A stretch of DNA of 36,736 bases from Cryomorphaceae bacterium (GTDB taxonomy: Bacteria > Bacteroidota > Bacteroidia > Flavobacteriales > Schleiferiaceae), in NCBI GenBank assembly GCA_020832345.1, contig JAFIEY010000038.1:1-36736 (forward strand), in the 5' to 3' direction. The position numbers and the translations under genes were made by a program. Below, one piece after another: positions 13,395 through 32,923 of the stretch. How positions within the stretch are numbered: position 1 is the stretch's first letter; every line of letters begins with the position of its first letter. The notes below the pieces were generated by a model, which worked only from the letters and a program-made list of their open reading frames with translations, was not told the origin of the DNA and searched no databases.

Positions 13395-13652
13395 TTATTG
13401 TCTTTTTGAAGGAAAACAATCCATTTGTACAAACTATTATTTTTTTATGATGAAGTTGTTTTATAAATGTATAACGCGTTATTAATGCATGTTTGCCTAG
13501 ATTTTTATTGAATTCTATCTCCTCCAAAGAAAGGTGACTTTCAACGCCCCAATTCAACAGTTTATACATTTTACTTAATTTTATTTTTTGGTTTGACGTC
13601 AATTTGGGGTCTGAAATCGAGTGAATGTATGATCACTTTAAACCCAAACCCC

Positions 13653-16600
13653 ATGAAAAATTACTTTACCCGAAAAGTTATTATTGGATTTTTATTCTCT
13701 GCATCTCTTCAAGCACAAATTCCACAGTTGGAAACCAACTGGCCACAACCTAATGGCGCCGTAAACGCTATTGCAGAAGACCAAACTAATGACCGCATTT
13801 ATTTAGGCGGCAACTTTTCCGCATTTTCTAATATTTACAGGTCAAATGGTGTTTTTCTGGACACCCAGACTTCCGATATCGAAATTAATTTCCCGGAAAT
13901 TGATGGGCGAGTACTGTCTTCTATCCCGGATGGACAAGGTGGTTGGTACATTGGTGGAGGATTCACAAAAATAGGGGATAGTCTTCGCCAAAATATTGGT
14001 CACGTCGATCAGAATGGGAATGTGACGGCTTGGAATCCCGGTGTAAACGGTACGGTGGCCTACATGGATATCGCCGTCGATTCTCTTTATATTGGAGGAA
14101 CTTTTTCTCAAGTAAACAACCAAACCCGATATTCCCTAGCCGCTTTTGATATGGCTACCGGCCAGCTCACAAACTGGAATCCGGGTACAGATTATTTATG
14201 TATTAATTCGATGCTGGTCAACGACTCGGTGATGTTCTTGGTTCGTCACGGTTCTTATTCTGCTATGGTTATTCAGGGTCAAACCCGGGAAGGTGTTGCA
14301 GCGATTGACCTTAAAACGGGAAATATTTTGCCCTATAATCCGTCCCTACCTTTTTCCGGCACTCCGGATGACGATGTGTTTTCCTCCGCGCTAAAAGGTG
14401 ATACCCTTTTTATAAGTGGTTTTTCTGCACCCATGGTCGGACAACCACATTTTTGGTTGGCGGCATTCCATACAGTGACCGGTGCTAGTCTGACAATCAA
14501 CTACAATGTCAACGAGGTTCGGTCTATGGCCATTCAAGGAAATACCATGTTTTTTGCGGGAACCCTGCCCGGCGGTTCTAATTTTAGGAGAATTCACTCC
14601 ATTGATCTCGTTTCCGGATCCATCAATACTTTGCCCTTAAGTATTCCGTCAGGAAATGTTAATCGTTTGTTTTTAAACGGTAATCAATTGTATTTTATTG
14701 GGAACTTTGAAACTGTAAACAGCCAGATGAGGAAGGAAATAGCCTCAGTTGATATAAATACCAATACCCTGAGTCCGATTCAGGTATTTCCCGGGACTTC
14801 AAATTTTCGAACCATTTCTGTTTCTGGAGCTAAGGTTTTAATTGGCGGGTATTTTAGTGGTCTATCTGCCGGATCTGGGGTGACGGCTAAAAGCGGCATT
14901 GCAGCATTGGATGAAGCAAATGGAAATATTTTGCCGTGGAATGTAGATGTTTCCGGTGGTGCAGTTCGGGATATTGCATTGCACGGCGACACAGTGATAT
15001 TTGTTGGGAATTTTAATCAGGTAAACGGACAAGCAAGGAATGGTTTTGCCATGGTCAGTGGTGTCTCGGGAAATTTACTCGGTCAAGATATCAATGTTAC
15101 GGGAACAGTAGATCGGGTTTTAGTTGCAAATAATTTAGCATATATCGGGGGTTCGTTTTCTTCCGTGTCGGGCCAAACACGATCTGCCTTAGCTGTCATC
15201 GATTTGTCCAATGGAAACCTGACTTCGCTTAATGCCCAAATTGCCTTAACCACACCGGGTATGCCAACCGTTGTGGCAATGGAATATGCCAATGGAAAAT
15301 TATTCATCGGGGGTCGATTTAATCAAATTGGGGGTGTTTCCAGAAATTCACTTGTAGCCCTAAATGCCTCCACGGGAACTTTGCTGTCATGGAATCCCAA
15401 TCTTAGCTCATCATCGGGAAATACGAGTATTACCGATTTGGAGATTTTCGGAAGTGAAATATTTTTAGCCGGATTTTTTCACGAAGTCAATGGACAGTCC
15501 CGCGATTATTTTGCTTCAGTAGATACCGGAACGGCAAATGTTACCAATTGGAATCCGCAAATTGGCGGGACTATTTTTACTAATCATCATTTTGGTGTTT
15601 CCCCTTCAGTAGGTCATGTTCATATTTATGCGCCATTTACTTCGGTCAATGGTTTTCAGAGAAATCGTTTAGCTCGGGTAAATTCAACCGATGGCCAAAT
15701 TACAGCCTGGGAACCGCAGCCGAATAATAGGGTATCGAAATTACTCCGAACATCTAACCGCTTGTATGTTGGAGGTAATTTTACTTCAATAGAAAATTCT
15801 AGCCGAAATTATTTTGCTGCTTTCAGCGATTCTATTGGTGGTTGTGCAGCGCCTCAAAGTTTATTTGCCGATTCCATTTCCTTTTCCTCTATGGTCATTC
15901 GATGGACGGATTTCGGGTCACCCGTTGAATGGGAGGTGGAGTTTGATCAGACGGGAATTCCCCCCGGTACGGCCAACACATATATGACGACCCAGCCCTT
16001 ATTCGCAGTGCAGAATTTGGATACGGGTGCTGCCTATGATTTTCGTGTTCGCGCTATATGTGCGCCTGGCGACACATCTGATTGGACGACAATTAATACC
16101 GCAACCACGCTTTTTATTTGTGAAAATAATATTCAATTTCCAGCTCAGGCATACGCAGTTCAGCCGGGTAACGCTCAAACCATCAATAGCTGTGTTCCAA
16201 GAAACACCTATTCTGTATTGACCAATATTCAGACTGGTCAGGTTTATCGCGTTCAGCGACTTCAATCGTATATAACGATCAGAAAGGGAAGCCCCAACGG
16301 ACAGCTGATTGCTTCCGGAGAAGCGGATGTAACTTTTTCCGCTTCAACGAATGATGACTTATACGTGCATTGGAATACGGGAATTGATTGTGGACAGGAC
16401 TCCGTGGGTTGTCATCTCGCGCAGGTGCAATGTATGAGTTGTGAAGTGGTGTATTTGGATGAGGATTTTTCTTCCGGATTGGGCGTTTTTTCCCCTTCAG
16501 GCGCAAATGGGAATTTGTGGTATCGAGCAGAGCCCATTACCCCGATTGCTGTTTCAGATAGGAATTATTCTATGTCTCCTTCTAATAGGGAACCACTGTT

Positions 16601-19600
16601 TTACAGCGTAAACCAATTGATTCAAAGTCCTACGGTAAGTAATGGTTTTGCCATGCTGGATATGGACGCGTACAATTCATCCGGTGGAAATCCCACCAGT
16701 AACTCCGTTTCGGCATACTTGACTTCCCCGCCAATGAATTTTAATCAGGTAAGTGGAGCAATAACACTTTCGTTTAAGTATTCCATTCGCTATTGTTGTG
16801 CGGCTAATGCTGAATTTTTGGTGCAGATATCAGGTGACAATTTTAATACAACCACGGATGTAGTTGTCAATTCGAATTTGGCACCCAATGTTCCTCGTGA
16901 AGATGGGGAGTTTTCGATGGTTCTCAATAATATTATTAATGCCATGAATTTTAGTCAAAAAAGCAATGTTCGCATTAGATTTTTTGCCGCCAACGGAGCA
17001 ACCCATTATTTTTGGATGATCGACGATGTTCAAATTAAGGAAGTTCGTGCCGCAGATCCTCAACTTATTTCGGCATATTACACAACAAATTCTACCACCA
17101 ACCCCAACGCTGTTTTTACCGATTTTCCTTATACGGTGTATGATACGACCCAGTTGCGTCCCTTGGTTTCGGTTGCCACGGTTTCCAATGCGGGCGGCCA
17201 GTCTTTAACCAATGTGCGGGTAAATCTTGACATAACCGGGCCAAATGGTTTTTCTCAAACGCTTACCAGTACCGCAAAGAATTTGGCACTCGGAGCACAA
17301 GACACGGTCAGTTTTCCCGGTTTTACCCCACCAATGGTTGCCGGTGATTATCATTTCAATTACGCCGTAGTATCCGATCAGGTTGATTTTGATTCGACCA
17401 ATAATTCAGCGTCGTATATAGTCAAAGTTTCAGATTCCATTTTTGCCGCAGATAAAAGCGATTTTCAAAATCTTGGGCAATGGGCAAATACAACGGTTGG
17501 GGGTGCAAATCCATCCGGGAATTATTTTATAGGAAATCGATTTGAAATCACCAGCAATGTCAAGGTAAATGGTTTGTCGGTTAGAATAGGCTCAGGTTCT
17601 CAAGCAGGCACAACCATTAGTGCCCGAATAGTTGATAATTTCACCACCCTCATTGCAAAAGATTACGTGGTTCAGCCAAACGATATCGATAGTTGGGTTT
17701 ACATTCCTTTTGATTCAGCCTTTGATGCCAGTGCGGGAATGGTGTATTCGGCAGGAATTGAGTATTTGGAAAATGGAAGTGGTCAAAAGGTTTTTGTCAA
17801 TACTTCAGGTGATGCGGTGCCACTTCAAAGCAGGTTGGTAACTTATGACAATTCAGGAAATTATTATATCACCAGTATTCCTTGTATAAGAATGAGTTTG
17901 GCGCCAGAGCCTTGCAGTTATTTGTCCCATGATACAACTTTGACAGTTTCAGCATGTGGGCAGTATGAGTTTAAAAATCAAATTATTACACATTCCGGTA
18001 TGTATTACGATACACTGGTCAATACCTTTGGATGTGATTCAATTATCACCCTTGATCTTACTATTGTGCCGCCTATAAATGTGATAGACACTGTTTTTGC
18101 CTGCATTGATTATACTTGGCCGGTAAATAATGTGACATACGATTCTACTGGGTGGTACTCGGATACTTTAGTGGCGGTTTCCGGTTGTGATTCCATTTTG
18201 TGGTTGTATCTCAATCTCGGCGTATGCTGTGAAATTCCCGAGAACCTTAGTGTGCTAAATACAAGCTTGCATTCGGTTGAACTCACTTGGATTGATTCCG
18301 GACTGGGTTATAAGTGGGAACTCGAGTGGGGTGCTGAAGGTTTTATGCCGGGAAGTGGGAATTTCGTTGATTCAGCCGTCAGTCCGTTCTTTATCTCCGG
18401 TTTGTCGCAAGGCACTTCTTATGAGTTTTATGTGCGATCCATTTGCAGTGATGGCGACACAACTGCTTGGAGCGATCCACGTCAGTTTTACACTCTGTTT
18501 CCCCATGATATGCAATTGTTGACTCAATTCCAAAGTGTATCCGGCACGGCTTCTCCTCAGATTCGTGCTATTGCTCATGACACCGTCAATAATCGGGTTT
18601 TATTAGGCGGAAGTTTTACAAATTACGGACCTTTCCCTAGAAGCAATTATGCGGCTGTCGATTATGGAACCGGTGCGCTGTGGATGGGTACACCTAGCGT
18701 TCAAGGCGGTCAGGTTTACACCATTCTTCCGGTTGGAAATACCATTTACATCGGCGGAAGCTTTACATCGGTCAATGGACAAAATCGAAACCGACTGGCA
18801 GCTTTTGACGCATCTACCGGAAACTTAAAAAACTGGGATCCGGGTGCAGATAACTTGGTGTTTGATCTCGTTGAAAAAGATGGTATTATCTATGCCGGCG
18901 GTATGTTTCAAAATGTGGGTGGTCAAAGTAGGGTAGGGGTTGCCGCAATTGATACAACTGGAAACACAACGGCCTGGGGGAGTTCGACTGCTTCGTCAGC
19001 CGATATTTACCAAATATGGAAGTTGGAAATTGTCAATGATAAAATGTATGTGGCGGGGGACTTTTCCAATCTCGGAGGTCAGCCGCGAAACAATGCCGCC
19101 TGTCTGGATTTGCAAACGGGCGCAGCCACACCTTGGAGTCCCAACATCGATCTTTACACAACCCATGTGTATCACCACGATGGAAGCATCTATATGTCGG
19201 GACATATTATTTCCACCGACTCCATCGAAACCAAATGTTTGGTAAAACTCGACACCATAAACGGTACTGTTGAACCTTGGAATGTGGTAACCAATCATAA
19301 CGACCCGGTAATTCCGGCATGGGGATTAGAACAGGAGTACGATAAGTTTTTTGTGTATGGAAACTTCACGGAAATGGCTGGTGTCAATAGGGAAAGCTTG
19401 ATGTCTATCGATATCCAAACCGGTGGAATGACCGATTGGGATCCTATGATTTCGGGCGCAGTTAGATCTGCGAAATTTATCGATAACATGCTTTTTGTTG
19501 GTGGAGGTTTTACACAAGTTCAAGGTCAATCTCGTCAAGGCCTTGCCGTTTATGGCTTGCAGCTCAATTGCCCGGATGATCTAGGTGCAAGTGTGATTAA

Positions 19601-22600
19601 TTTGGATTCCCTTCCGTATTCTGTTGTTGGAACAACCACTTGTGGGGCTGGAAATAATTTGAGTAGAGCCAAAATGAATTCCTGCAATAATGTGGTGTAT
19701 TACATGGGCGAAGATCAAGTCTATGTCTTTTCTCCTGCGGTTACCGATACTTTTGCTATCAGCGTTGAAAACAATACAGATTGGGCAAATGTAACTTTGT
19801 TTGAAGGTTGTCCGCTGGTTTTACAAAATGGTGTTTGCATGGATAATGTAAGCGGATTTGGGGACCAAACCATGACCGTCGTATTGGAAGCTGGAAAAAC
19901 GTATTATTTGATTGTAAATGGTCAAAATTGCTTCCAGTACGATTTGCATATACAGCCTGTGGGTCGCCCAACCCTAACCTATACCGTCGTTTCAGCATTT
20001 GACTCCATTCATGGGGTATCTCCTCAGGCCGGACTGCCCAACAATATCGATCCGCAATCTGCCTTTGAATACCGCGTGGTTTACAGTCATCCCAATAATA
20101 TTCCGCCACAAAACGGATTTCCGGTTGTGGGTATTGACAGCTCCGGTAACGGTGTGTTCGATCAGGTGGTATCCATGACCGAGGTGGATGTGAACGATCA
20201 AGACTATGTCAATGGTAAGGAATATTTCTTTGTACGTGGTTTTGAAGAAAATTACAGTTTGCAATACGCTTTTATGGCCTTCGATACCATCGGTAAATTT
20301 GCCATAGGGGAGGCCACGCAAATCAAAAGCGGACCTATTGTTTATGCTGATTCATTGGATCTCTTGGTTTATGCCAGTGATATAACTTTTTCGGATAACA
20401 ATCCACCGGTTAATACGCCTGTGGACATAACGGTGAAAATTCACAACAATTCGGTTTTTGCCGCCACTGATGTTCCGGTACATATTTACGATGGAAACAC
20501 GATAATCGACTCAGTTTTGATTCCGGTTATTGCCGCGCAATCGTATGAGGAAATTACGGTTTCCCGAACTTTTGCTTTCGCGGGATATTATCCAATAAAG
20601 GCTGAAATTGATAAAAACAATACCCTTCAGGAAAACAACCGACTAAATAATTTTGCCATTCGCCCAATTACCGTTGGGAACTTTTCTACCGGGGGAAGCA
20701 TTGTCGTTAGCCTAGATTCTATTCCACAGGAAATGTGTAATGGTGCATTCTTCCTGTACAAAGGTGTTGCCGTTTATTCATCTGAATTTGGAAACAACAT
20801 TCCGGCAGCTGGCGCTGAGGTGATAGCTGAAGTTGCGCAGACCGGACAAACGTTTAAAGGAAGGACAAATAGTAATGGGCGATTTAATTTTCCGGTTTGG
20901 GCGTCGGGTGCCCCCGGAAATTATACCATTACTGTAGAGGTAACTGATTTTACCGTAAGTGGGTTTGGTCAAAATCTCGGTTTTACTGTAACCTCATGTC
21001 CTTCCTCCCCAAATATGCCTTCCAATTCTTCTCCCGGCGGTTCATGGAACAATCCTTTGCCTCCTATTGTCCGCAATCCAGGTGGTTCGGTATTTTTCCC
21101 CACCTACAAGGCGGATCTCGTAGTGTTATCACAATATATTTCACCTACCAAAATCAATCCGGATACGGGTGAGTATATCCAAATTATCACATCGCTTGAA
21201 AATACAGGGGATTTGCCGGCAGATAATTTTTATGTGCAGTTTGAGATAGACGGTACTCCCTTTGGCAGTCCGGTGTTTATACCCAGATTGTTTCATGGAT
21301 TTTCTACTGCGGTTATGGCCACGGATTCTTTTTCCTCTCCCATACCCGGCTACCATGTAGTTCAAGTGGAGCTCGACCCCGATGGTTTTGTGGATGAACA
21401 AACCTTATCCAATAATATCGCAACCCGCGCATTTATAGTGGGTTCACCGGTGGATTTGGCATTTCGTGATAGTGCGGGATTTTATCCCTCAGATTATTTC
21501 CCCGGCATCGGCCAGCAAATTTCTATTACTTCGGTGATAACCAATTCCGGAAATCACGTAGCTGATGGTGAAGTGCATTACTACCTAATTGACGGCCCGG
21601 ATACCACCTTTATCGATTCTACGCATTTTAGTATCGGACAACTGGATACGATTACAACTTCCATAAATTGGACGGCGACGCAAATGCACGGCAGGATTTA
21701 TGGCGTCATCAAAAACGTGGATCCTGAAGAACCCAATGTGTCGAACAACACGGATTACTTTGATTTGGGCATGCAAAATGGGCTTCCTGTGATGCCAGAA
21801 TTTGTTCAGCCTCCGGTCAATCAGGTGGTTTGTAATGGCGACAGTATTGCCATTCCCATGCAGGTGAAATTTACTTCCGAAATAAAATGGTATCGAAATG
21901 GTACGCACTTCAGTCCGATGGTTGATACCTTAGCTCAGTTTTATCCCGCTGCACAATTGGATAGTGGGCATTATACCGTCGTTATTTCAAATCCGTATTT
22001 TTCTGATTCTGTAGATTTTGTGGTCGAGGTAATTCCGCCGCTTTTCGGTTCCCCAGAACATCATACTTCCTGTGGCGCTTTCCTTTGGCCGGTCAATAAT
22101 CAGACATATACAAGCAGCGGAACCTATCAGCATATTTTAACCAGTGCAAATGGTTGCGATTCTGTTGTAACTTTAGAACTGGTAATTGTTCCACCTTCGA
22201 GCTCTACCCAAACTGAAAGCGCCTGTTCGCAATACTTCTGGGAGGTCAATAACCAATGGTTGACCAATAGTGGTACCTATGTCGATACGATTATGGACAT
22301 CAATGGCTGCGATTCTGTGGTGACCCTACATCTCACCATTTTCACACCGGGCAGTGACAATCAAACGATAACAGCTTGTGCGTCATATTTGTGGCCGGTT
22401 AATAATCAGGTTTATACCAGCAGTGGAACGTATTCAGATACTTTAATGGACGCCAATGGGTGTGATTCGGTAATCACCCTTAATCTCACAATCAACCCGC
22501 CTAGTGTGGGGTCGCAAATTGAAACCGCCTGTGGCAGTTTTACTTGGTCGGCTAATAACCAGACCTACACCGCGAGCGGCACCTATGTGGACACCTTGTT

Positions 22601-23270
22601 GAATGCCAATGGCTGCGATTCGGTTGTGACCCTCAACCTGACGATTCATTCTGCTTCCACGGGCAGTCAAACCGAAGTGGCCTGTGGCAGTTTCACCTGG
22701 TCGGCCAATAACCAGACCTACACTGCGAGCGGCACCTATGTGGACACCTTATTGAATGCCAATGGCTGCGATTCGGTAGTGACCCTAAACTTGACCATCG
22801 AGATAGTAGATGTAAGCGTTTCGGATTCTGTATTGTCATTGACTTCCAATGCTGCGAATGCCGCGTATCAATGGTTGGATTGCCAGAATGGATATGCCCC
22901 GATAAGTGGCGCCACCAGTCAGATTTTCACACCGGCAGTAAATGGACAATATGCGGTGGAGGTTACGCAAAATAATTGCGTCGATACCTCGGCTTGTTAC
23001 GTCATCGACCAAATTGGAGTAGATATGTTTTCGCTTTATCCGATGCAATTATTTCCAAATCCCACCCACGGTACATTTACATTGGATTTAGGTCGGACTT
23101 ATCCTGATTGTTGGGTGCGCATTCTCGACGTCAATGGCAAGGTTGTAATGACCTTCAAAGCCGATGAAGCGCGTACCATAACTCGACATTTAGAAGTTGC
23201 AGCGGGCGTGTATATGATTCAGGTAAAAGTGCCGGAGGGCACCAAAATCCTGAAATTGGTAGTGTTGTAG
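13653..23270 (+). CDS. 3205-aa T9SS-sorted surface protein with two beta-propellers and Cys-repeat array
   Basis: The signal peptide MKNYFTRKVIIGFLFSASLQAQ fixes the likely start; earlier TTG (13593) and ATG (13629) only prepend a polar leader. Domains by eye: a beta-propeller of repeats like IYIGGTFSQVNNQTR...WNP (about 25-730); FN3-like (731-815); MAM/cleaved-adhesin-like jelly-roll (936-1130); CARDB-like (1131-1259); beta-sandwich (1260-1420); two ~50-aa Cys repeats (1425-1525); FN3-like (1526-1614); a second propeller (1620-1969); PPC-like (1972-2105); CARDB-like (2233-2343); carboxypeptidase-regulatory-like (2350-2450); two CARDB-like (2485-2710); Ig-like (2710-2795); five 51-aa Cys repeats (2805-3055); Ig-like; and a T9SS type A sorting domain (about 3130-3205, FPNPTHGTF). 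It is probably a secreted or surface adhesin. It ends 27 nt before the convergent proA stop. Confidence 0.9.
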   Translation: MKNYFTRKVIIGFLFSASLQAQIPQLETNWPQPNGAVNAIAEDQTNDRIYLGGNFSAFSNIYRSNGVFLDTQTSDIEINFPEIDGRVLSSIPDGQGGWYIGGGFTKIGDSLRQNIGHVDQNGNVTAWNPGVNGTVAYMDIAVDSLYIGGTFSQVNNQTRYSLAAFDMATGQLTNWNPGTDYLCINSMLVNDSVMFLVRHGSYSAMVIQGQTREGVAAIDLKTGNILPYNPSLPFSGTPDDDVFSSALKGDTLFISGFSAPMVGQPHFWLAAFHTVTGASLTINYNVNEVRSMAIQGNTMFFAGTLPGGSNFRRIHSIDLVSGSINTLPLSIPSGNVNRLFLNGNQLYFIGNFETVNSQMRKEIASVDINTNTLSPIQVFPGTSNFRTISVSGAKVLIGGYFSGLSAGSGVTAKSGIAALDEANGNILPWNVDVSGGAVRDIALHGDTVIFVGNFNQVNGQARNGFAMVSGVSGNLLGQDINVTGTVDRVLVANNLAYIGGSFSSVSGQTRSALAVIDLSNGNLTSLNAQIALTTPGMPTVVAMEYANGKLFIGGRFNQIGGVSRNSLVALNASTGTLLSWNPNLSSSSGNTSITDLEIFGSEIFLAGFFHEVNGQSRDYFASVDTGTANVTNWNPQIGGTIFTNHHFGVSPSVGHVHIYAPFTSVNGFQRNRLARVNSTDGQITAWEPQPNNRVSKLLRTSNRLYVGGNFTSIENSSRNYFAAFSDSIGGCAAPQSLFADSISFSSMVIRWTDFGSPVEWEVEFDQTGIPPGTANTYMTTQPLFAVQNLDTGAAYDFRVRAICAPGDTSDWTTINTATTLFICENNIQFPAQAYAVQPGNAQTINSCVPRNTYSVLTNIQTGQVYRVQRLQSYITIRKGSPNGQLIASGEADVTFSASTNDDLYVHWNTGIDCGQDSVGCHLAQVQCMSCEVVYLDEDFSSGLGVFSPSGANGNLWYRAEPITPIAVSDRNYSMSPSNREPLFYSVNQLIQSPTVSNGFAMLDMDAYNSSGGNPTSNSVSAYLTSPPMNFNQVSGAITLSFKYSIRYCCAANAEFLVQISGDNFNTTTDVVVNSNLAPNVPREDGEFSMVLNNIINAMNFSQKSNVRIRFFAANGATHYFWMIDDVQIKEVRAADPQLISAYYTTNSTTNPNAVFTDFPYTVYDTTQLRPLVSVATVSNAGGQSLTNVRVNLDITGPNGFSQTLTSTAKNLALGAQDTVSFPGFTPPMVAGDYHFNYAVVSDQVDFDSTNNSASYIVKVSDSIFAADKSDFQNLGQWANTTVGGANPSGNYFIGNRFEITSNVKVNGLSVRIGSGSQAGTTISARIVDNFTTLIAKDYVVQPNDIDSWVYIPFDSAFDASAGMVYSAGIEYLENGSGQKVFVNTSGDAVPLQSRLVTYDNSGNYYITSIPCIRMSLAPEPCSYLSHDTTLTVSACGQYEFKNQIITHSGMYYDTLVNTFGCDSIITLDLTIVPPINVIDTVFACIDYTWPVNNVTYDSTGWYSDTLVAVSGCDSILWLYLNLGVCCEIPENLSVLNTSLHSVELTWIDSGLGYKWELEWGAEGFMPGSGNFVDSAVSPFFISGLSQGTSYEFYVRSICSDGDTTAWSDPRQFYTLFPHDMQLLTQFQSVSGTASPQIRAIAHDTVNNRVLLGGSFTNYGPFPRSNYAAVDYGTGALWMGTPSVQGGQVYTILPVGNTIYIGGSFTSVNGQNRNRLAAFDASTGNLKNWDPGADNLVFDLVEKDGIIYAGGMFQNVGGQSRVGVAAIDTTGNTTAWGSSTASSADIYQIWKLEIVNDKMYVAGDFSNLGGQPRNNAACLDLQTGAATPWSPNIDLYTTHVYHHDGSIYMSGHIISTDSIETKCLVKLDTINGTVEPWNVVTNHNDPVIPAWGLEQEYDKFFVYGNFTEMAGVNRESLMSIDIQTGGMTDWDPMISGAVRSAKFIDNMLFVGGGFTQVQGQSRQGLAVYGLQLNCPDDLGASVINLDSLPYSVVGTTTCGAGNNLSRAKMNSCNNVVYYMGEDQVYVFSPAVTDTFAISVENNTDWANVTLFEGCPLVLQNGVCMDNVSGFGDQTMTVVLEAGKTYYLIVNGQNCFQYDLHIQPVGRPTLTYTVVSAFDSIHGVSPQAGLPNNIDPQSAFEYRVVYSHPNNIPPQNGFPVVGIDSSGNGVFDQVVSMTEVDVNDQDYVNGKEYFFVRGFEENYSLQYAFMAFDTIGKFAIGEATQIKSGPIVYADSLDLLVYASDITFSDNNPPVNTPVDITVKIHNNSVFAATDVPVHIYDGNTIIDSVLIPVIAAQSYEEITVSRTFAFAGYYPIKAEIDKNNTLQENNRLNNFAIRPITVGNFSTGGSIVVSLDSIPQEMCNGAFFLYKGVAVYSSEFGNNIPAAGAEVIAEVAQTGQTFKGRTNSNGRFNFPVWASGAPGNYTITVEVTDFTVSGFGQNLGFTVTSCPSSPNMPSNSSPGGSWNNPLPPIVRNPGGSVFFPTYKADLVVLSQYISPTKINPDTGEYIQIITSLENTGDLPADNFYVQFEIDGTPFGSPVFIPRLFHGFSTAVMATDSFSSPIPGYHVVQVELDPDGFVDEQTLSNNIATRAFIVGSPVDLAFRDSAGFYPSDYFPGIGQQISITSVITNSGNHVADGEVHYYLIDGPDTTFIDSTHFSIGQLDTITTSINWTATQMHGRIYGVIKNVDPEEPNVSNNTDYFDLGMQNGLPVMPEFVQPPVNQVVCNGDSIAIPMQVKFTSEIKWYRNGTHFSPMVDTLAQFYPAAQLDSGHYTVVISNPYFSDSVDFVVEVIPPLFGSPEHHTSCGAFLWPVNNQTYTSSGTYQHILTSANGCDSVVTLELVIVPPSSSTQTESACSQYFWEVNNQWLTNSGTYVDTIMDINGCDSVVTLHLTIFTPGSDNQTITACASYLWPVNNQVYTSSGTYSDTLMDANGCDSVITLNLTINPPSVGSQIETACGSFTWSANNQTYTASGTYVDTLLNANGCDSVVTLNLTIHSASTGSQTEVACGSFTWSANNQTYTASGTYVDTLLNANGCDSVVTLNLTIEIVDVSVSDSVLSLTSNAANAAYQWLDCQNGYAPISGATSQIFTPAVNGQYAVEVTQNNCVDTSACYVIDQIGVDMFSLYPMQLFPNPTHGTFTLDLGRTYPDCWVRILDVNGKVVMTFKADEARTITRHLEVAAGVYMIQVKVPEGTKILKLVVL
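22065..22803 (+). repeat. Five in-frame 153-nt (51-aa) tandem repeats
   Basis: Units start at exactly 22065, 22218, 22371, 22524 and 22677. Each encodes a pattern like AC..F.W..NNQ.Y..SGTY.DTL...NGCDSVVTL.LTI with two conserved Cys, likely a disulfide-linked beta unit. Units 4 and 5 are almost identical in DNA (GCGAGCGGCACCTATGTGGA and much of the rest are shared), pointing to recent duplication. Two older, diverged units of the same kind lie near 17950-18225. Confidence 0.93.
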
Positions 23271-23297: not shown

Positions 23298-24497
23298 CTA
23301 ATTCCTCACCTGTCCATTACCAAACACATAATACTTGTTGGTCACCAGTTGCTTGAGTCCGAGTGGCCCGCGATGGTGAAGTTTGTCGGTGCTAATGGCC
23401 AATTCTGCCCCCACGCCCATTTGCCCACCGTCGGTGAATCTACTGGATGCATTATGATACACTGCGGCGCTATCCACTTGTTCCATAAACTCCTGCGCTT
23501 CGGACGCATCTTCAGTCATGATTACACTGGAATGTTTTCCGGAGTACGTGTTGATTTTGTCGATGGCTTCTTGTAGTGAATCCACGGCGCCAATGACAAT
23601 TTTCATGGCCAGAAACTCTTCGAACCAGACATCTTCTGAAGAAATAATGGAGGCTTCCGCTAAAATTGATTTGGTGTTTTGGTCGGCTAAAACTTCCACG
23701 TCCAATTCGTTCAGGATTTGATGCAGTTCTTTGGTTTTTTCTTTAAATCCCTCAATGTTTTTGTCGATTAAAACCTTGTCGAGCGCATTGCATCCGGAAA
23801 TTTTATTGGTTTTTGCATTGATGATAACTTCGATGGATTTTTTCCAATTGGCTTTTGGAGAAACATACAAAAAGTTGTTTCCTCTTCCGCTAATTAAAAC
23901 GGCGCATTTAGCGTGAAGTTTGACAAACTCGATTAGTCTTTCGCCACCTCTTGGGACAATTAAGTCGAGCTTTTCGGTGGGATTTCGCAAAAATTCCTGG
24001 GTTTCATCCCGGTTCATTTCCAGCATTTTTATCCACTCATTCCCAAGGTTGTTTTCAGACAATGCCTTGTGCCAGCATTCTACCAAAATCACATTGCTAT
24101 GGTATGCTTCTTTTCCGCCTTTGAGTAAAATTTTGTTGTTGGCTTTAAATGCGAGAACCGCTGCTTCAATGGTTACATCCGGGCGGGATTCGTAAATGAT
24201 CATGATGGTGCCAAATGGATCGGTTCTATTAATGATGCGCAAGCCGTTTTCCAGGGTGATTTTCGAAATGTCCTTTCCAACGGGGTCGTCCTGTTCCATC
24301 ACTTCCCGAATGGCTTGAATCATGCCGTCCACTTTTTGGTTGTCCACCACCAAACGGTCGTATAGGGCGCGGTCATCACGGTTAAAAGCATCGAGATCCT
24401 TTTGATTGGCTTTTAATATGTCCTCGCGTTTTTTATCCAGAATGCGAATCATGGATTGCAAGACATTGTTTTTTATTTCGGTTTTGATCAACTTCAT
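23298..24497 (-). CDS. proA: Gamma-glutamyl phosphate reductase (proline synthesis)
   Basis: ProA reduces gamma-glutamyl phosphate to glutamate-5-semialdehyde with NADPH, the second step from glutamate to proline. The 399-aa protein has the aldehyde-dehydrogenase-like fold. Visible marks are PFGTIMIIYESRPDVT (94-109), LLKGGKEA (124-131), VPRGG (181-185), the catalytic Cys236 in SGCNALDKVLI, and the closing signature ASSRFTDGGQMGVGAE...HHRGPLGL. Its length is normal for the family. It follows proB by 27 nt in the same orientation, so the two are an operon, with proC upstream. The C-terminus runs close to the convergent 3205-aa T9SS gene. Confidence 0.96.
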   Translation of the reverse strand: MKLIKTEIKNNVLQSMIRILDKKREDILKANQKDLDAFNRDDRALYDRLVVDNQKVDGMIQAIREVMEQDDPVGKDISKITLENGLRIINRTDPFGTIMIIYESRPDVTIEAAVLAFKANNKILLKGGKEAYHSNVILVECWHKALSENNLGNEWIKMLEMNRDETQEFLRNPTEKLDLIVPRGGERLIEFVKLHAKCAVLISGRGNNFLYVSPKANWKKSIEVIINAKTNKISGCNALDKVLIDKNIEGFKEKTKELHQILNELDVEVLADQNTKSILAEASIISSEDVWFEEFLAMKIVIGAVDSLQEAIDKINTYSGKHSSVIMTEDASEAQEFMEQVDSAAVYHNASSRFTDGGQMGVGAELAISTDKLHHRGPLGLKQLVTNKYYVFGNGQVRN

Positions 24498-24524
24498 AGT
24501 TTTTGTTTTTTTGAAAATTCAAAT

Positions 24525-25304
24525 TTAGTTTTTGGTCACCAAAGTGCCAGGATTGCGTCCTTCTACAATATCGATAATGGTGTTTTCTTCCTTTCCATTG
24601 GCGATATAGGTTGGGATACCTAAGTTGGCGGCTGCTTTGGCAATCCGAAGTTTTGACTCCATGCCGCCTCGGCCTTCTCCTTCAGCTTTTCTCGACTTCT
24701 GCACGTATTTTTCCACGTCTTGATCCACGGTTACATGTCGAATCAATTCCGAATTTTCGTCATCTGGGTGGCCGGTAAATAGCCCGTCGATGTCGGTGAG
24801 TAAAATGAGCATATCGGCGCCAATGAGTTCGGCGACCAAGCTGGCCAATTCATCGTTGTCGGAAAACATAGAATCGGTAAGCGACACGGTGTCGTCTTCG
24901 TTAGCTATGGGAATTATCCCCTCATTGATAAGAACCTCATAACAATTCGTCATGTTGTCGCGATATTCTCCGGGTGCAAAATCTCGTTTTGTGGCCAACA
25001 CCTGAGCGCATCGCATCCCGATGTCGTGAAACATGGAGTAGTAATGCCGCATGAGCCGTGGTTGGCCTACCGATGTATAGATTTGACGCCGGGCGGTTTT
25101 GTCGGTGGCCGAACATTCGCCGAGCACTTCTTTGCCGGCAATGGCGGAACCGGAGGAAACAAGCGCGGTAATGATGTCGCGTTCGTAGAGATATGAAATT
25201 TGTCGTATTAGGTTGCGTAAAACAGGACCAACGATTCTGTTGTTTCTATTGGTCATCACGTTGGTGCCTACTTTTACAACAATTCGTTTTTCGAAAGTTT
25301 CCAA
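24525..25304 (-). CDS. proB: Glutamate 5-kinase, short form without PUA domain
   Basis: ProB phosphorylates the gamma-carboxyl of glutamate, the committed and usually proline-inhibited step of proline synthesis. The 259-aa protein is the amino-acid-kinase domain only: VVKVGTNVMT near the N-terminus, VSSGSAIAGK, IANEDDTVS, LLTDIDGLFTG and GRGGMESK. It lacks the C-terminal PUA domain found in the ~367-aa E. coli enzyme. The start is TTG at 25304: an in-frame TGA lies only a few codons upstream, and no ATG or GTG occurs before the essential VVKVGTN strand. The proC-proB gap of 92 nt contains a weak hairpin (TTCAGGGG paired with CCCCTGAA, 25322-25367). Confidence 0.95.
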   Translation of the reverse strand: METFEKRIVVKVGTNVMTNRNNRIVGPVLRNLIRQISYLYERDIITALVSSGSAIAGKEVLGECSATDKTARRQIYTSVGQPRLMRHYYSMFHDIGMRCAQVLATKRDFAPGEYRDNMTNCYEVLINEGIIPIANEDDTVSLTDSMFSDNDELASLVAELIGADMLILLTDIDGLFTGHPDDENSELIRHVTVDQDVEKYVQKSRKAEGEGRGGMESKLRIAKAAANLGIPTYIANGKEENTIIDIVEGRNPGTLVTKN

Positions 25305-25396
25305 AGCATTTGTTTTGTTTTTTCAGGGGGCTTTTATTAAAATACCCACAAACCTCAAGCCCCTGAAGAATTGAAGTTTGGAGATTTTTAATGGGT

Positions 25397-26203
25397 CTAT
25401 TGTTCTTTTCCCAATTCTACAGCTCGGTTAAAAGCTGCGTAGGCCGCTTCCTGAATGCGTTCTTTGACGTTGTTGTCGTCCATAGAGTCCAATGCAGCTT
25501 GTGTAGTGCCGCCCTTAGAAGCCACGCGCTTCATCCAGCTTACGGGGGTGAGATCGGACTGAGAAAATAATTCGATGGCACCCTCGAAGGTGTTTTGTAC
25601 CAAAACTTTAGCATCGTGATCAGAAAAGCCCATTCGCTTGGCAGCCTCCATCATAGATTGCATAAAATAAAACACATAAGCCGGTCCGGAGCCTGAAATC
25701 CCCGTTGATTTGTCGATAAAGGTTTCGTCGTCAACATGGATGGATTCTCCGGTGGTGTCTAAGAGATTTCGGATAAGGATGAGTTCAACTTTTGAGACTG
25801 TTGAAGACTCTGTGTAAGAGGTAATTCCTTTTCCCACTTTTGCGGGCAGGTTGGGCATGGTTCGCACAACTTTTGAAATTCCGAGTTGCTCCTGAATGGT
25901 TTTAATTTTTACCCCGGCCATAAGTGAAACGAAAATTTGATCTTCTCTAACCAAGGGTTTTATGGAGGCGAAAAACTTTTCTGCGTGGTAAGGTTTGATG
26001 GCGATGAATACGATATCTGCAATGGAAATGCAGTCTTCAATTTTTTCGTAAACATCGTAGTTTGGGTCTTTTTTTAGTTTGCCGGTGATTTCGGCGCTGA
26101 TGTCGTAAATCATCAATTTTCTTCGACTGAACCAGCCTGAATGGGCCATGCCCTGAGAATAGGTGAGCCCCATGTTTCCGGCACCCACAACCAATAACTT
26201 CAT
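25397..26203 (-). CDS. proC: Pyrroline-5-carboxylate reductase
   Basis: ProC reduces 1-pyrroline-5-carboxylate to L-proline with NAD(P)H, the last step of the pathway whose first two enzymes are encoded just downstream. The 268-aa protein shows the N-terminal Rossmann motif VVGAGNMG (5-12), FIAIKPYHAE, VRTMPNLPAKVGKG, and the C-terminal signatures STGISGSGPAYVF and VASKGGTTQAAL. Its length and all motifs are normal. An ATG start is used. A perfect inverted repeat AACACT-GTAA-AGTGTT (26221-26236) lies 18 nt upstream of the start codon and could be an operator (inference). The three pro genes are collinear and probably one transcription unit. Confidence 0.96.
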   Translation of the reverse strand: MKLLVVGAGNMGLTYSQGMAHSGWFSRRKLMIYDISAEITGKLKKDPNYDVYEKIEDCISIADIVFIAIKPYHAEKFFASIKPLVREDQIFVSLMAGVKIKTIQEQLGISKVVRTMPNLPAKVGKGITSYTESSTVSKVELILIRNLLDTTGESIHVDDETFIDKSTGISGSGPAYVFYFMQSMMEAAKRMGFSDHDAKVLVQNTFEGAIELFSQSDLTPVSWMKRVASKGGTTQAALDSMDDNNVKERIQEAAYAAFNRAVELGKEQ

Positions 26204-27163: not shown

Positions 27164-30100
27164 ATGAATTTTCATCGTCTTTCCATGCAACGGTATTCTC
27201 CGGTTTTTTTGTTCTTTTTCATCTTTGTCGGGATGTCTTTATCTTTTGCGCAAAATCCCGGTTCATTTGAAAAGCGTTTTTATCCAAGCCAACCGCCGGG
27301 AAAAATTGCCCTGGCCAAGTTGAGTTATGAGTCGTTTGAAATTTTATACGAACAACCAAATTTAATTTTATCCGCGCCCTACGATACCATCGACCTATTG
27401 TGGTTTGATGGTGAATTTGAATATCAACGGTATCTTAAGTCGATAGCGCCCGGGAATTATCTCAAATTGAATTTGAACTTCGAATATTTGGAATTACAAT
27501 TTTTTGTAAAGCCTTATTTAACGGCGCATCTTATTAATCATGAATCAGATGGTTATGTTCAATTCACCAACCTTTTTGGCAAAATTAATACACAATTGGA
27601 ACCCAAAATAAATTGCTGGTGGTGTCGTCCGCGGTATAAAGCGGCTTTTTCGGGTTATCAACTTTCGGGTTTTAGCGGCAACAAAACGCTTGTGCTAAAA
27701 GGAGATTCCATTCATCAAAAATGGCGTGTTTCCCGAAGTAAGCCCCTTGATGCTTATGGGGATGGTTATGGTGGGGGTTCTGGTTCGCGTGCAAGTAATA
27801 ATCACGGCTATATCATTACCAGTCAGCCGGTTTATCGGCATTTAGATACCCTCAAAATGAAAGCTTATTTGTTAAATGAATTCAATAAACCCTTAAAGGA
27901 CGCCGTTCGGGTCGAACTGCGGGAATTTAGGAATCGGTTTCATTACGGTAGCGAAAAGTTGATTTTTCGAAAAACATTAGCCCCTACCCGGGAAGGGCTT
28001 TTTTTGCTGGAGGAAGTGCTAGGTGATAGTTTGAAGTTAGATAAAGAATATAAAATATGTATTTTTTACCGGGCCAATAACGGGGATATGGTCAATCCCA
28101 AGCGTTGGTCAAATACATTTTCAATTAAAGATTACCAATTGGATGATTTTAGCATGAAACTGGAGGCTTTGGAATCAGTCGTTTATCCGGGAGAGGATGT
28201 TACGGCAATTGTCCAATTGTTAGACGGGACACAACAACCGATGCCGGGCGCCCGGGTGATTTTTAACGGTCAATTTTCGGTGATTTCCAATCCTAAAATC
28301 AAAAAGCCTTATTCGGTTTCTCTTCATATTGCAACCGACACCATTTACACCGATCACAATGGTTTTGCAAGATTTACTATTTCTAAGGAAAAACTTGACC
28401 ATCCTTTTCAGTTTTCGGTTAATATTTCAGCCGAAGCACTTTTGCCCAATGGGGAAATGAAAAAATCCAGCACACATATCCAACAAAAACCTAATAAAAA
28501 CCCCCTTATTTTAGAAAGGAGGACGGATGGGTTTTACGCTTTTTTGGCCGATAGTAGCTCCGGGTCGGCCTTGTTGATTCGGAAGTATAAAGACACCGAA
28601 ATCCGCGATTCAATTTCGCTGCCTGTTGCCCTGCCGCCAGATCCTATGGTGTTGAATTATATCATTCTTTATAAGGGTTTTATCCGAAATTTCTCCAATG
28701 ACATTCACGGGCCTGTCATCGGGGTCGTTCAAGAATATCAGTCGGATGGAATACACGTAAAATTATCAAATCCCTTTGGATATCCCTTTAAGGGTGTGAT
28801 AAGATACAAAAAACAAAAGATTGAATTTTCGCATTCGGGGGACACAGCTTTTTTGTTGCCCATGGGAATAAAAGAAATCGCGTATCTCGATTTGTATTAT
28901 TTTCATAAAGGCAAACTGGAACGAGCAACTCACAATCTACAATTTAAAGAACGGTTACTGAATATTTCTTCCAATTTTCCGGAAAAAACCTATCCGGGCA
29001 TGGAGCATCATGCGGAGGTTCAGGTTAAAAATTATCTGCATGAACCCGTTTCGGATGTTGATGTTTCGGTGGTAAGCTTTACCGATCAGTTTGAAACGCG
29101 GAATATTCCCGACCTGCCTTATACCGGAAAAATATTTGGCGCTTTTTCTTCCCGGTATTTATATTCTCTTAGAGAAGTTTCAAAAACTAAAAGTACCAAT
29201 ATCCCGCTAAATGAACATTGGGTAAGGCGGTTTGGAAAGCGAACAGATTTGTATTACGACCTATTGCTCAATAAAAAACGTATTTACCGATTGATTCCCA
29301 ACGGAGATAGCAATGTAGCTGAAATTGCCGTGTATCCGATAGCGGGCAATGCCTTCGAGAAACCGATTTATATAAGTATGAATGGCGAAATTGTTTATTA
29401 CTACCGCGCCAATCAGCCCTTTAGTTTTTATACCCAAAGTGAATTAAATTCCATCACTGTGCGGATGAAGAATGGAAGATATTACAATTTTCATGATATT
29501 CCGGCGGTAAAAGGTTATAAGACTGTATTTTCATTTTTTGCCATACCCTCGCATAAAAGAGAGCCGCTTACGGATGTAGAGATGAAAAGGTTGGAAAAGC
29601 ATTATTTTCAATTTACACAAGACAATGTCCTTGTGGAAGTACTTGATTATAAAGTGAATAATAATATTTACTTTCGTCAGGGTTACGGTTCAAATAACGG
29701 GATTTTTGGTCCACTGCTCCATTCCCATAGCAAAAAGGTGAATGTATATAATCCGTATCGGGAAATGATGCCTTTTACCCTTGTTCCGGGAAAAAATCAC
29801 CAACTTAATTTTGACGAGCGCACCATTCTTATTTCGGAAAACAATGTAGTAAAAAAAGATTTGCATTCGGCGTATTCTTTTCGTTTTGATTTGGATGAGT
29901 TTTGTTGTGAAAAGTTTGATACATCCGAATTTTTTGTACACCCACTTGAACCCGTAATTCAAAGTTTGATTTACAACAACAGGGAAAAGCGATCATTATT
30001 TGCCGGAGGAACCGGGGCTTCTGCGCAATTTGTTGTATCTGAAAACGACCTTTTTTCGGATATTCGACACCCGGATCATATTCAATATTATGTTTTAATG

Positions 30101-32923
30101 CCGAAAGGGAAGGAGGGTTACGGAACGCCTTTTTTCTTTTCAAACCCAAATATTATGAACAATATCCAGCCCGGAGAATATCGGTTTTACGGCATTACGT
30201 TTACAAAAGATATTGCTTGGTTTTGGAAAAGTGAGGGGAAGGTTGAGGATGGTATGCGAACTTATTTTCCAATGGAATTTGTGGAAAGTAAAGCGTCATT
30301 TGAGAATATACCTATTTTCGATACCCTGCCCATTGGGGAAAATTTGCTCAAAATGGAGGTTAACCATGATGTAGTTGAATACAGTAAAATTGAGTTGCCA
30401 AAAGACAATTTGGTTAAGGTTTTTGGTTCTGTAAAGGAGCAAAATGGACAATCCGTTCCTTTTGCAACGGTTATAGCTAAAGATTTAGACGAAAATATTT
30501 TAAAGGCAGTGGATTGCGATGTCAACGGTGACTATGCGCTTTATTTACCGGAGGATTTGGCAATTTCCCTTGAAGTAAGTTTTTTAGGTTTTAGGACATT
30601 TAGAATTGAAGGCCTAGAGATCTCAAGAGAACCGATTAGACAGGATTTTTATTTAAATGAAGAAGCTGAAATGCTTAGTGAGGTTGAAGTGATAAGCTAT
30701 AGTAGTCCGTTAATTACAAAGGATGTTAAAACAACGGTAGCTCCTCAGGAAATAAACCAAATGGCCATTCGAGATGTGGTTAATATTGCAGCACAAACCG
30801 CCGGGGTATTCGTCCCCGACTCTAGACCCAGCTTCATAGACGGCGTAAAAGTAAGAGGTAGTTTGCGACTTCCTCAAGGCAGTATTCAGACCGAGGAAAT
30901 TTTCACCGGTGGTGTGCCGGCGCAGTATGGAGATGCAGGGGGCGGTTTGGTCCAATTTGAAAAGGCTGAAAATGAGGTGACACTGGATATGGCCAGTTCC
31001 GGATTGCGAAGTAATTTTTCGGATTATGCGATATGGGAAGTCAATCACCTGTCCAATGATTCCGGGTACGTTCGATTTACGCACACTTGGCCCGATGATA
31101 TTACGACTTGGGAAACGCATATTCTGGCCATGAATCCCAAATTGTTTACCGGACAAACCACCGTCAAGACCAAGGCGTTTAAACCCATTCAGGCGCGTTT
31201 GTTTACACCGCGTTTTGCCATCCACGGTGATCGTATAAGCCTGACGGGACAATTGCAAAATCAGACCGGACAGCGATATCCGGGCAGTATTCGGTGGTCA
31301 GATACCCCGGGTGATACCCTGGAAGAAACCACGGAATTGCTCAGGGTGATGGATAGAACACATCGACTTGAGGCGCCAGAGCATGAGGATAGCCTTTCGG
31401 TATTTTTCGGTGTAAAACTGGAAAATGGTTACGAAGATGGAGAAACGCGGAAATTGCCCTTATATCCGCTGGGTGCGCTAAAACACGAGGGAATGGGGTT
31501 TGTCGCCTGGGACGATACTACGTTTCAAATCGGATTTGAAAGTGGCGAAATGGTCATCCATGTTGACAGCGGCCCGGGAAAAATACTGCAGGATGAGGTT
31601 TATTATTTATCCAATTATGTGCATTCCTGCAATGAGCAAATGGCTTCACGGCTATTGGGTCTGGCATTGTACAATGAAAAATTAAAAAGTGAAAATCTTT
31701 CCACCAAAAAAAATGAGCGAGAAATTCAGAAAATTGTAAAACTTCTGAATAAGAATCAATTGGGTAACGGCACTTGGGCATGGTATGGAATGGGAAGATC
31801 AGATATGCGAATGACCAAACATATTGCCGAACAATTGCTGTATGTAGAACAGAAGGGCATTGCGATAGGCGATGCCCTCAATGAGGTGAAATCCAACATC
31901 GAGGATTGGATTGAAGGCGCTCGTAATCGCACCGATTCCCTTGAACTCGCGCTACTCATGGCACGATTGGATTTGCCGTTCCACTACGAAGCTATTTTGA
32001 TTCATACCCGTGATACTTTGGTATATCACACCATGCTTCGCGCTATGATTGCTGAATGGCGAGGGATAGAATCTCAAAAGGTCAACATCATGGAATTGAG
32101 TAAAAAGACCATTTACGGCAATATATATTGGGAGGAAAAGGTCAACACTTATATGCGAAATCCTTTTGGAAACCAGCAGCTCAATTTTATGGCTTTTGAA
32201 TTGCTGCAAAAAATGAACGCACCAAAGGAGCAAATTCTTGGCACCCTTGGCTATTTATTGGAAAAACGACGGGGAAGGTATTATTATAACACGGTATATT
32301 CTTCTACCTTTTCAAGATTATTGGCCAATGATTTTTACAAACAAAGGAAGCGTGGTGAAAATCCGAGTTTGACCGTTTCTCCGGATGCAAGGGTGTATCG
32401 CGAACTTCCGGTGACCTGGAAAGGGTATGCGCATCCCGACATGACCGCTAACTTAAAAACCGGCGGGGATATGTTGTTTGTTAATTGGTACAACGAACGA
32501 TGGGAATCCCACCCCAAAAATGATGGTGCAAATCCGGGCTTTTCAATTGTCAGGACATTTAAACAAAGTGATTCACCCCCGGATAGTGTGTTTGTTCAGG
32601 GAAGGGAAATCTTTATGGAAGTGGAGGTCACGGTCAGTAAAGAAGCCAACTACATGATGATGGAGCTGCCCATTCCAGCCGGTTGCGGGTATAAAAACAA
32701 ATCCCAGCACGTGCCTTACGCAACGCACACGGAGCAATTCCGCGATAGGGTAGTGGCGTATTTTGACCATCTTCCTACTGGCACCTTTACCATTCGGGTT
32801 CCATTACAAACCCGATTTAGCGGAAAGTACTACGCCAATCCGGTTCGTCTGGGTTCTATGTACTTTAAGCACTTGGAGTATTTCGACGACGGTGTGTTGG
32901 TTGAGATTTTGGACAAGCCCTAA
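27164..32923 (+). CDS. Giant alpha-2-macroglobulin with CNEQ thioester and inserted TonB-plug-like module
   Basis: This 1919-aa exported protein belongs to the A2M family, whose members trap proteases and bind them covalently. The signal peptide ends near SLSFAQ with no lipobox. ATG at 27185 gives an equally good signal peptide, and TTG at 27158 is less likely. Domains (by eye, numbered from 27164): N-terminal macroglobulin-like region; MG2-like from about 215 ([20 protein letters not shown]); further MG domains; a carboxypeptidase-regulatory-like domain (1083-1165); a TonB-plug-like segment (about 1173-1271: [32 protein letters not shown]); an A2M/MG7 domain (from 1282, [10 protein letters not shown]); a thioester helical domain with Cys1489 in SCNEQMASR; and a C-terminal MG10-like domain (1813-1919, [23 protein letters not shown]). 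There is no beta-barrel and no T9SS signal. The stop codon overlaps that of convergent asnS. Confidence 0.85.

Follow-up and report, generated by a model that had tools for sequence, protein, structure and literature searches.

We examined a gene for an alpha-2-macroglobulin (A2M) on contig JAFIEY010000038.1 of a Cryomorphaceae bacterium from the order Flavobacteriales. The whole stretch of DNA that was analyzed, referred to here as the window, is 36,736 nucleotides long and belongs to a 4.03-Mb genome in 260 contigs. An original prediction, made from the letters of the window, had placed the plug of a TonB-dependent receptor in the middle of this A2M, in the position of the bait for proteases. 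Domain and homology searches confirmed this architecture at the level of sequence: the window protein reads as an A2M with a plug-derived segment directly before its A2M domain, which by domain order is the bait position. The order is carboxypeptidase-regulatory-like (CpepD) domain, plug, A2M domain, CNEQ, and the macroglobulin (MG) domain MG10. The features are as follows.

27164 to 32920, stop codon 32921 to 32923, plus strand: A2M gene, 1,919 amino acids (aa); open frame without internal stop, with Pfam A2M and bMG10 matches
27164 to 27253 (residues 1 to 30), plus strand: signal peptide, type I by eye; hydrophobic run to ...SFAQ
27254 to 30418 (residues 31 to 1085), plus strand: N-terminal half, probably MG domains, judging from A2M homologues
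30419 to 30649 (residues 1086 to 1162), plus strand: CpepD domain, PF13620, E 1.4e-7
30650 to 30955 (residues 1163 to 1264), plus strand: truncated Oar-like TonB plug module, recognized through BLAST homology to an own-genome receptor and through a receptor-only hidden Markov model (HMM)
30680 to 30700 (residues 1173 to 1179), plus strand: TonB-box-like EVEVISY, whose position matches that of the TonB box after the N-terminal extension (NTE) in SusC Bt1763 (PMC7782687)
30833 to 30946 (residues 1224 to 1261), plus strand: well-kept plug motifs [10 protein letters not shown] ... [15 protein letters not shown]
31028 to 31291 (residues 1289 to 1376), plus strand: Pfam A2M domain PF00207, including DDITTW, E 9.1e-13
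31628 to 31639 (residues 1489 to 1492), plus strand: putative thioester, the sequence motif CNEQ
32537 to 32863 (residues 1792 to 1900), plus strand: bMG10 domain PF17973, E 4.8e-10

The C-terminal part behaved as foreseen: PF00207 (48.3 bits, cut-off 21) and bMG10 were both recovered, and the thioester motif is in place. CarboxypepD_reg reached 32.2 bits against a cut-off of 32.3, and CarbopepD_reg_2 (E 2.7e-6) was likewise under its cut-off. At E ≤ 1, Pfam listed for the window protein neither Plug nor the bait-region domain PF07703 nor MG2 (PF01835); the last two are seen in relatives, with MG2 at E 4e-5, under the Pfam cut-off, in a 1,992-aa relative of the same family (G019, L033). The signal peptide stood on inspection by eye, and the N-terminal MG domains predicted with it were not significant in Pfam (MG4, E 0.14). 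The predicted absence of a beta-barrel held up, in that no barrel or receptor model matched the window protein and the plug is followed by the A2M domain, CNEQ, and MG10; the SusC models TIGR04056 and TIGR04057 gave no match at E ≤ 0.1. A location on the cell surface, also suggested originally, found no backing: the first 40 residues contain no Cys and hence no lipobox, and the domain scans found no sorting domain of the type IX secretion system (T9SS). The gene stands alone between two opposite-strand genes, asnS and a 156-aa open reading frame without a Pfam match.

Does the module derive from a receptor? In BLAST, residues 1088 to 1263 of the window A2M aligned with residues 28 to 218 of a 1,238-aa receptor encoded in the same genome (48% identity over 191 positions, E 5e-47). 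That receptor matched CarboxypepD_reg (E 4e-16) and Plug (E 6e-9) in Pfam and was classed as a TonB receptor through weak NCBIfam matches; we take it to be Oar-like, a name that no family model gave. Against a profile built from receptors alone, the window module scored 96 bits (E 1e-29), with 94 bits at residues 1163 to 1264. For this part of the chain, CpepD was thus 0.1 bit short of its cut-off, Pfam Plug silent, and the receptor-only profile positive. Because 13 plug residues of the own-genome receptor are missing from the window copy, we call its plug truncated. Many genomes of the family and order hold matching proteins, with frames of about 1,200 to 1,290 aa, and the module is 41 to 52% identical to four receptors of its own genus. 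Among related A2Ms, that of a same-genus relative (G004, L003) has a plug shorter still, and in that of the 1,992-aa relative enough of the plug is present to pass the Pfam Plug cut-off (E 4e-5). The window and G004 proteins are 33% identical in the module and 47% in the core, which suggests either that the window module was renewed from a receptor or that the G004 copy decayed faster. A chimeric assembly was rejected, since module and own-genome receptor agree in only about half of their residues and the architecture recurs in other genomes; a BAM subunit as the identity of the receptor or module was dropped on the basis of PMC12611786. As a separate observation, a 1,399-aa protein with a weak T9SS-tail match (L032:484-4680) adjoins the genome's Oar-like receptor gene on the same strand.

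We then asked how widely the graft recurs. With a profile of the A2M-to-MG10 part of five sequences, the window's included, and a threshold of >320 bits, 34 of the 395 genomes from the class encoded the subfamily, the window's own genome counted. One locus each was read from 30 of these 34 genomes; with G019 and G004 added, 32 members entered the HMM test. All 30 loci carried CxEQ, and Pfam, applied member by member at E ≤ 0.01, found CpepD domains in 27 and Plug in 12. Receptor-only HMMs (E ≤ 0.01; 53 Oar-like training rows, including repeats of the same genes, and 10 SusC receptors) matched a plug in 21 of the 32 members, 7 of them SusC-type and 14 Oar-like, the latter including weak remnants. 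The predicted combination therefore recurs. One member, L290, matched both profiles, and its bait module reads as a mosaic of both kinds of plug piece. Mapped onto a 31-row tree of the A2M core, the states of the module took 10 changes where the minimum possible is 2, and SusC-type modules called for no fewer than 2 changes on branches with good support. The type of module was therefore switched more than once.

Receptor sequence was also found in other kinds of A2M, sampled from the order and the phylum as the strongest rows plus a sample. Among the 65 long A2Ms of the order, receptor-only HMMs matched 24; they also matched 5 of 51 in the rest-of-phylum sample and 4 of the remaining 52; the corresponding Pfam Plug counts were 12/65, 2/52 (a set that includes one subfamily member, L253), and 4/52. 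L077 and L082 were left out as repeats of L095 and L120, and L043 and L194 for having no A2M-profile match. In L079, L080, and L082 the Pfam order was CpepD, Plug, A2M, with the bait-region domain in front in L080 and L082. Receptor motifs lay in the stretch directly before the A2M domain in 51 of the 65 long A2Ms, compared with 5 and 1 of 65 for 200-aa control stretches further upstream and downstream; the patterns for this count were picked after reading the sequences, and it is superseded by the receptor-only HMMs and by position scores. Since the gene sets come from related species, shuffles overstate significance.

To describe the evolution of the bait, taken as the 200 residues before the A2M domain, we compared omega between bait and core in A2M pairs with a core dS of 0.2 to 1.2. 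The median was 0.31 in the bait versus 0.06 in the core for 10 pairs with a plug in both members, 0.35 versus 0.06 for 16 pairs with one plug, 0.27 versus 0.05 for 36 Flavobacteriales pairs without a plug, and 0.30 versus 0.13 for 5 further plug-less pairs. Bait omega was thus about five times core omega, a gap that nine pairs of other A2Ms did not show (0.20 versus 0.26). In one pair the cores were 96% identical (dS 0.46) and the plug-bearing baits 37% identical (dS 1.24), so the module had been replaced. Receptor peptides also persisted where no plug was left. According to position scores from 10 SusC-type receptors, 41 plug-less Flavobacteriales baits held the TonB box in 18 to 23 cases and LQGRVAGV in 17 to 18, with 0.22 expected per position. 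One of 17 LQGRVAGV matches (L095) is a piece of CpepD; with it excluded, eight baits held both peptides, and in seven the order was reversed. Among non-long A2M controls, two other stretches of the receptor were slightly enriched (6/48 and 4/48). The idea that purifying selection holds the TonB box was tested and failed; the peptides come and go.

A different arrangement was found in a sister group. Its A2Ms, of 1,499 to 1,535 aa, have a gene for a SusC-type barrel of 919 to 943 aa directly upstream, at the following loci.

L315:8244-15652: barrel and A2M pair
L318:5273-12562: barrel and A2M pair
L319:4410-11672: barrel and A2M pair
L323 to L329 and L331: barrel and A2M pairs

The two genes were adjacent in 11 of the 12 loci read, the exception being L330. 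In ten pairs, 6 to 8 nucleotides, the stop codon among them, separate the last sense codon from the following start; the genes of L328 overlap by 83 nucleotides if the first ATG is taken as start. All 11 paired A2Ms had a near full-length plug match and GCFEQ, and none of the 11 barrel proteins matched the receptor plug profile at E ≤ 1. Pfam Plug was likewise absent from the three barrels scanned (E ≤ 1), as was TIGR04057 from the four scanned. The best TIGR04056 stretches of the barrels, out of 981 model positions, were 208 to 981 (L331), 634 to 980 (L315), 592 to 981 (L318), and 664 to 981 (L319); the L315 A2M matched positions 58 to 439, probably over-extended, and TIGR04057 at E 9e-15, above the cut-off. 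Compared with an ordinary 1,050-aa SusC, whose plug spans residues 101 to 244, the barrels align from residue 252 (L318), 265 (L315), and 230 (L319). The L315 barrel also shares an N-terminal CpepD part with this SusC, and a weak alignment of the L319 barrel to the SusC L349 (23%, E 3e-8) does span the plug region. Of 246 genomes from the order, 11 had the full-length barrel, and these are the same 11 that carry the A2Ms in an equally drawn 246; a twelfth match was the 1,063-aa frame of an ordinary SusC with its plug. On these comparisons the transporter of the sister group is apparently split in two: the barrel gene is devoid of TonB box and plug, and both are present, complete, in the bait of the neighboring protease trap.

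The surroundings of the pairs vary. The barrel of L318 and L319 is preceded by genes for an ECF-like sigma factor (scanned in L318 alone) and for a protein that combines a plug with a VWA domain; L315 and L331 differ there. These VWA proteins (L318:2891-5203 and L319:1826-4336; one YfbK-type, one T9SS-tailed) have a SusC-type plug and no barrel. Upstream of the plugless barrel in L315 lies a gene (L315:7623-8090) for a 156-aa secreted protein with two tandem half plugs, which Pfam Plug matched in two stretches. It had been suspected as a silent bait cassette near the A2M gene, an idea given up once the match proved to be this separate protein.

The window gene lacks the features of the split pairs: it has a truncated plug and no barrel neighbor, and its genome held no member of the plugless-barrel family at E ≤ 1e-90, with plugless barrels of other families not searched for. 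A 925-aa frame of the same genome that weakly matched the plugless barrels has its own plug, and a second weak match was left unread. The only barrel of the window genome that matches the source receptor of the module carries its own plug as well. The original prediction had offered docking to an outer-membrane transporter as an alternative to bait. For the lone window gene the data do not support docking; in the sister group they strongly suggest it. Bait is the better supported option for the window protein, given a module that is cut short and varies from lineage to lineage.

We tentatively favor a reading, to which we assign a probability of roughly 0.4, in which the window module serves as bait, a decoy aimed at proteases with receptor plugs as their target. 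The protein would be a protease trap of A2M type, presumably periplasmic, with a bait that appears to be a remodelled copy of what stands at the N-terminus of an Oar-like TonB-dependent receptor, namely CpepD, TonB box, and plug. This plug-like decoy would be cut by a protease whose target or binding partner is a receptor plug; the trap would then change shape, and the CNEQ thioester would couple to the protease. Domain order, receptor origin, recurrence, fast bait turnover, and the thioester motif are the observations on which this reading builds. The modules are often degenerate, the window copy lacking 13 residues and that of its same-genus relative more, so they cannot all be working plugs; fast bait change together with module swaps is the behavior expected if the proteases that press on a bait keep changing. 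It is plausible that receptor plugs are targets, since the whole plug of SusC Bt1763 is reported to be able to exit the barrel and be proteolysed, an expulsion that the authors rate as likely non-physiological when spontaneous in detergent (PMC7782687), and since Myxococcus Oar, which has an NTE and plug, is described as exporting the protease PopC through direct contact (PMC6434023).

Several results weigh against the decoy reading. Among close relatives, the receptor peptides are less well kept than their flanks (identity of 0.31 versus 0.44 in 14 pairs and 0.36 versus 0.43 in 13 pairs) and were better kept in just 4 of the 14 and 5 of the 13; unconserved peptides fit passive turnover as well as a moving target. 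In the subfamily, 11 of 32 members had no plug at E ≤ 0.01, which means that the module is not essential to it. No CxEQ was seen in 40 of the 65 Flavobacteriales long A2Ms (among L095 to L124, L155 to L181, and others), which therefore cannot work by a thioester, yet the baits of many of these still hold TonB-box or LQGRVAGV peptides, with the order often reversed. A predicted structure of residues 950 to 1919, made with two partial relatives as alignment, had a predicted local distance difference test score (pLDDT) of 38 and was unusable.

The main rival of the decoy reading is passive insertion, which we consider unlikely: the bait would be a permissive landing site that tolerates insertions, and recombination, made possible by the homology of the A2M's own CpepD domain (27 of 30 members) to dozens of receptor genes, would repeatedly paste plug sequence downstream of that domain with no benefit. 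Donors are plentiful (30 to 81 Plug matches per genome in five genomes, 24 in the window's own), and modules of both receptor classes, the mosaic in L290, the swaps, the decay, and the turnover of motifs without conservation are all compatible with such an origin. However, bait omega stays below 1 and is about 0.2 in two plug pairs that look vertically inherited, the TonB box and LQGRVAGV stand out in the 41 plug-less baits, mostly in reversed order, and the graft is found in several kinds of A2M. One-to-one coupling with a plugless barrel is also hard to see as passive. Two further readings are less likely for the window protein than either decoy or passive insertion. The TonB-box-like stretch might let TonB hold or pull the A2M and so couple the trap to the proton-driven Ton machine. 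The box follows CpepD as VDEVVV directly follows the CpepD-type extension of SusC Bt1763 (PMC7782687), it is the commonest receptor peptide left in degenerate baits, and an NTE-plus-plug fragment of Oar is reported to bind the C-terminal domains of TonB (PMC6434023); but the window box EVEVISY is divergent, boxes are gained and lost among close relatives, and the second retained peptide, LQGRVAGV, is left unexplained, which makes this quite unlikely in our view. Alternatively, the module could sit as a plug in trans in a receptor barrel and thereby place the trap at the pore. This is the natural reading of the split SusC/A2M pairs, in which a plugless barrel adjoins an A2M with a complete plug; for the window protein, which has a truncated plug, no operon, and a sole matching barrel with a plug of its own, it is very unlikely.

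A broader view would join the two arrangements. TonB transporters may be splittable, with a thioester A2M owning the plug as the cork of the pore, and the window A2M, with its truncated Oar-like plug, may be related to such proteins and, though it has no barrel, have retained the baited cork for use as a decoy. Cutting the cork, or TonB pulling it, would then fire the thioester, giving a gated, proton-driven device for protein capture. We regard this view as possible, if somewhat doubtful.

How does the window protein compare with known systems? E. coli ECAM/YfhM, a type I A2M, has MG domains, as the window protein probably does, and likewise a thioester domain with CxEQ and a C-terminal MG domain; it is described as having a disordered bait region, located in MG8 with the thioester domain separate, and a proposed role as a periplasmic protease trap (PMC4498604). 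Unlike A2Ms of the YfhM/PbpC type, the window gene has no lipobox and no pbpC neighbor, and it has a receptor plug in its bait. A separate YfhM-like A2M is encoded in the same genome (L041:1040-8797; 1,828 aa, MG2 and A2M matches, lipobox by eye), and the gene after it is presumably pbpC. With Oar-like TonB receptors the window protein shares the CpepD, TonB-box-like, and plug segment, and it differs from them in its shortened plug and missing barrel. The plug of other A2Ms, like the plugless barrel, comes from the SusC/RagA family, whose models the window protein did not match. In complement C3, C4, and C5 the bait position likewise holds an additional domain, the anaphylatoxin, which is unrelated to the plug. 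The nearest solved sequence to the window protein is C5 (E 6e-4). Among the top results in the open-licence literature, viewed as titles and abstract openings, we found neither an A2M with a plug nor a plugless SusC beside an A2M.

Some further observations were made in passing. L086, L087, and L089 (frames of about 670 to 685 aa) are secreted proteins that begin EVTVF..GA and lie at places matching the CpepD-plus-plug profile; we take them to resemble MuiA/DUF4139 proteins. Elsewhere in the window, 500-6355, 7006-9570, and 13593-23270 each encode a large protein with a T9SS sorting tail; the third, of 3,225 aa, has CARDB, fn3, and DUF5122 repeats. Genes for an aldehyde dehydrogenase, an amino acid kinase, and a P5C reductase follow one another at 23298-26203, probably for proline synthesis.

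To our knowledge, little is known about how bacterial A2Ms choose their targets and which proteases they meet. Receptor plug as bait material is a pointer to specific attackers. If the split SusC/A2M pairs are true, they would mean that a TonB plug works in trans and that nutrient pore and protease trap are one machine in some Bacteroidota.

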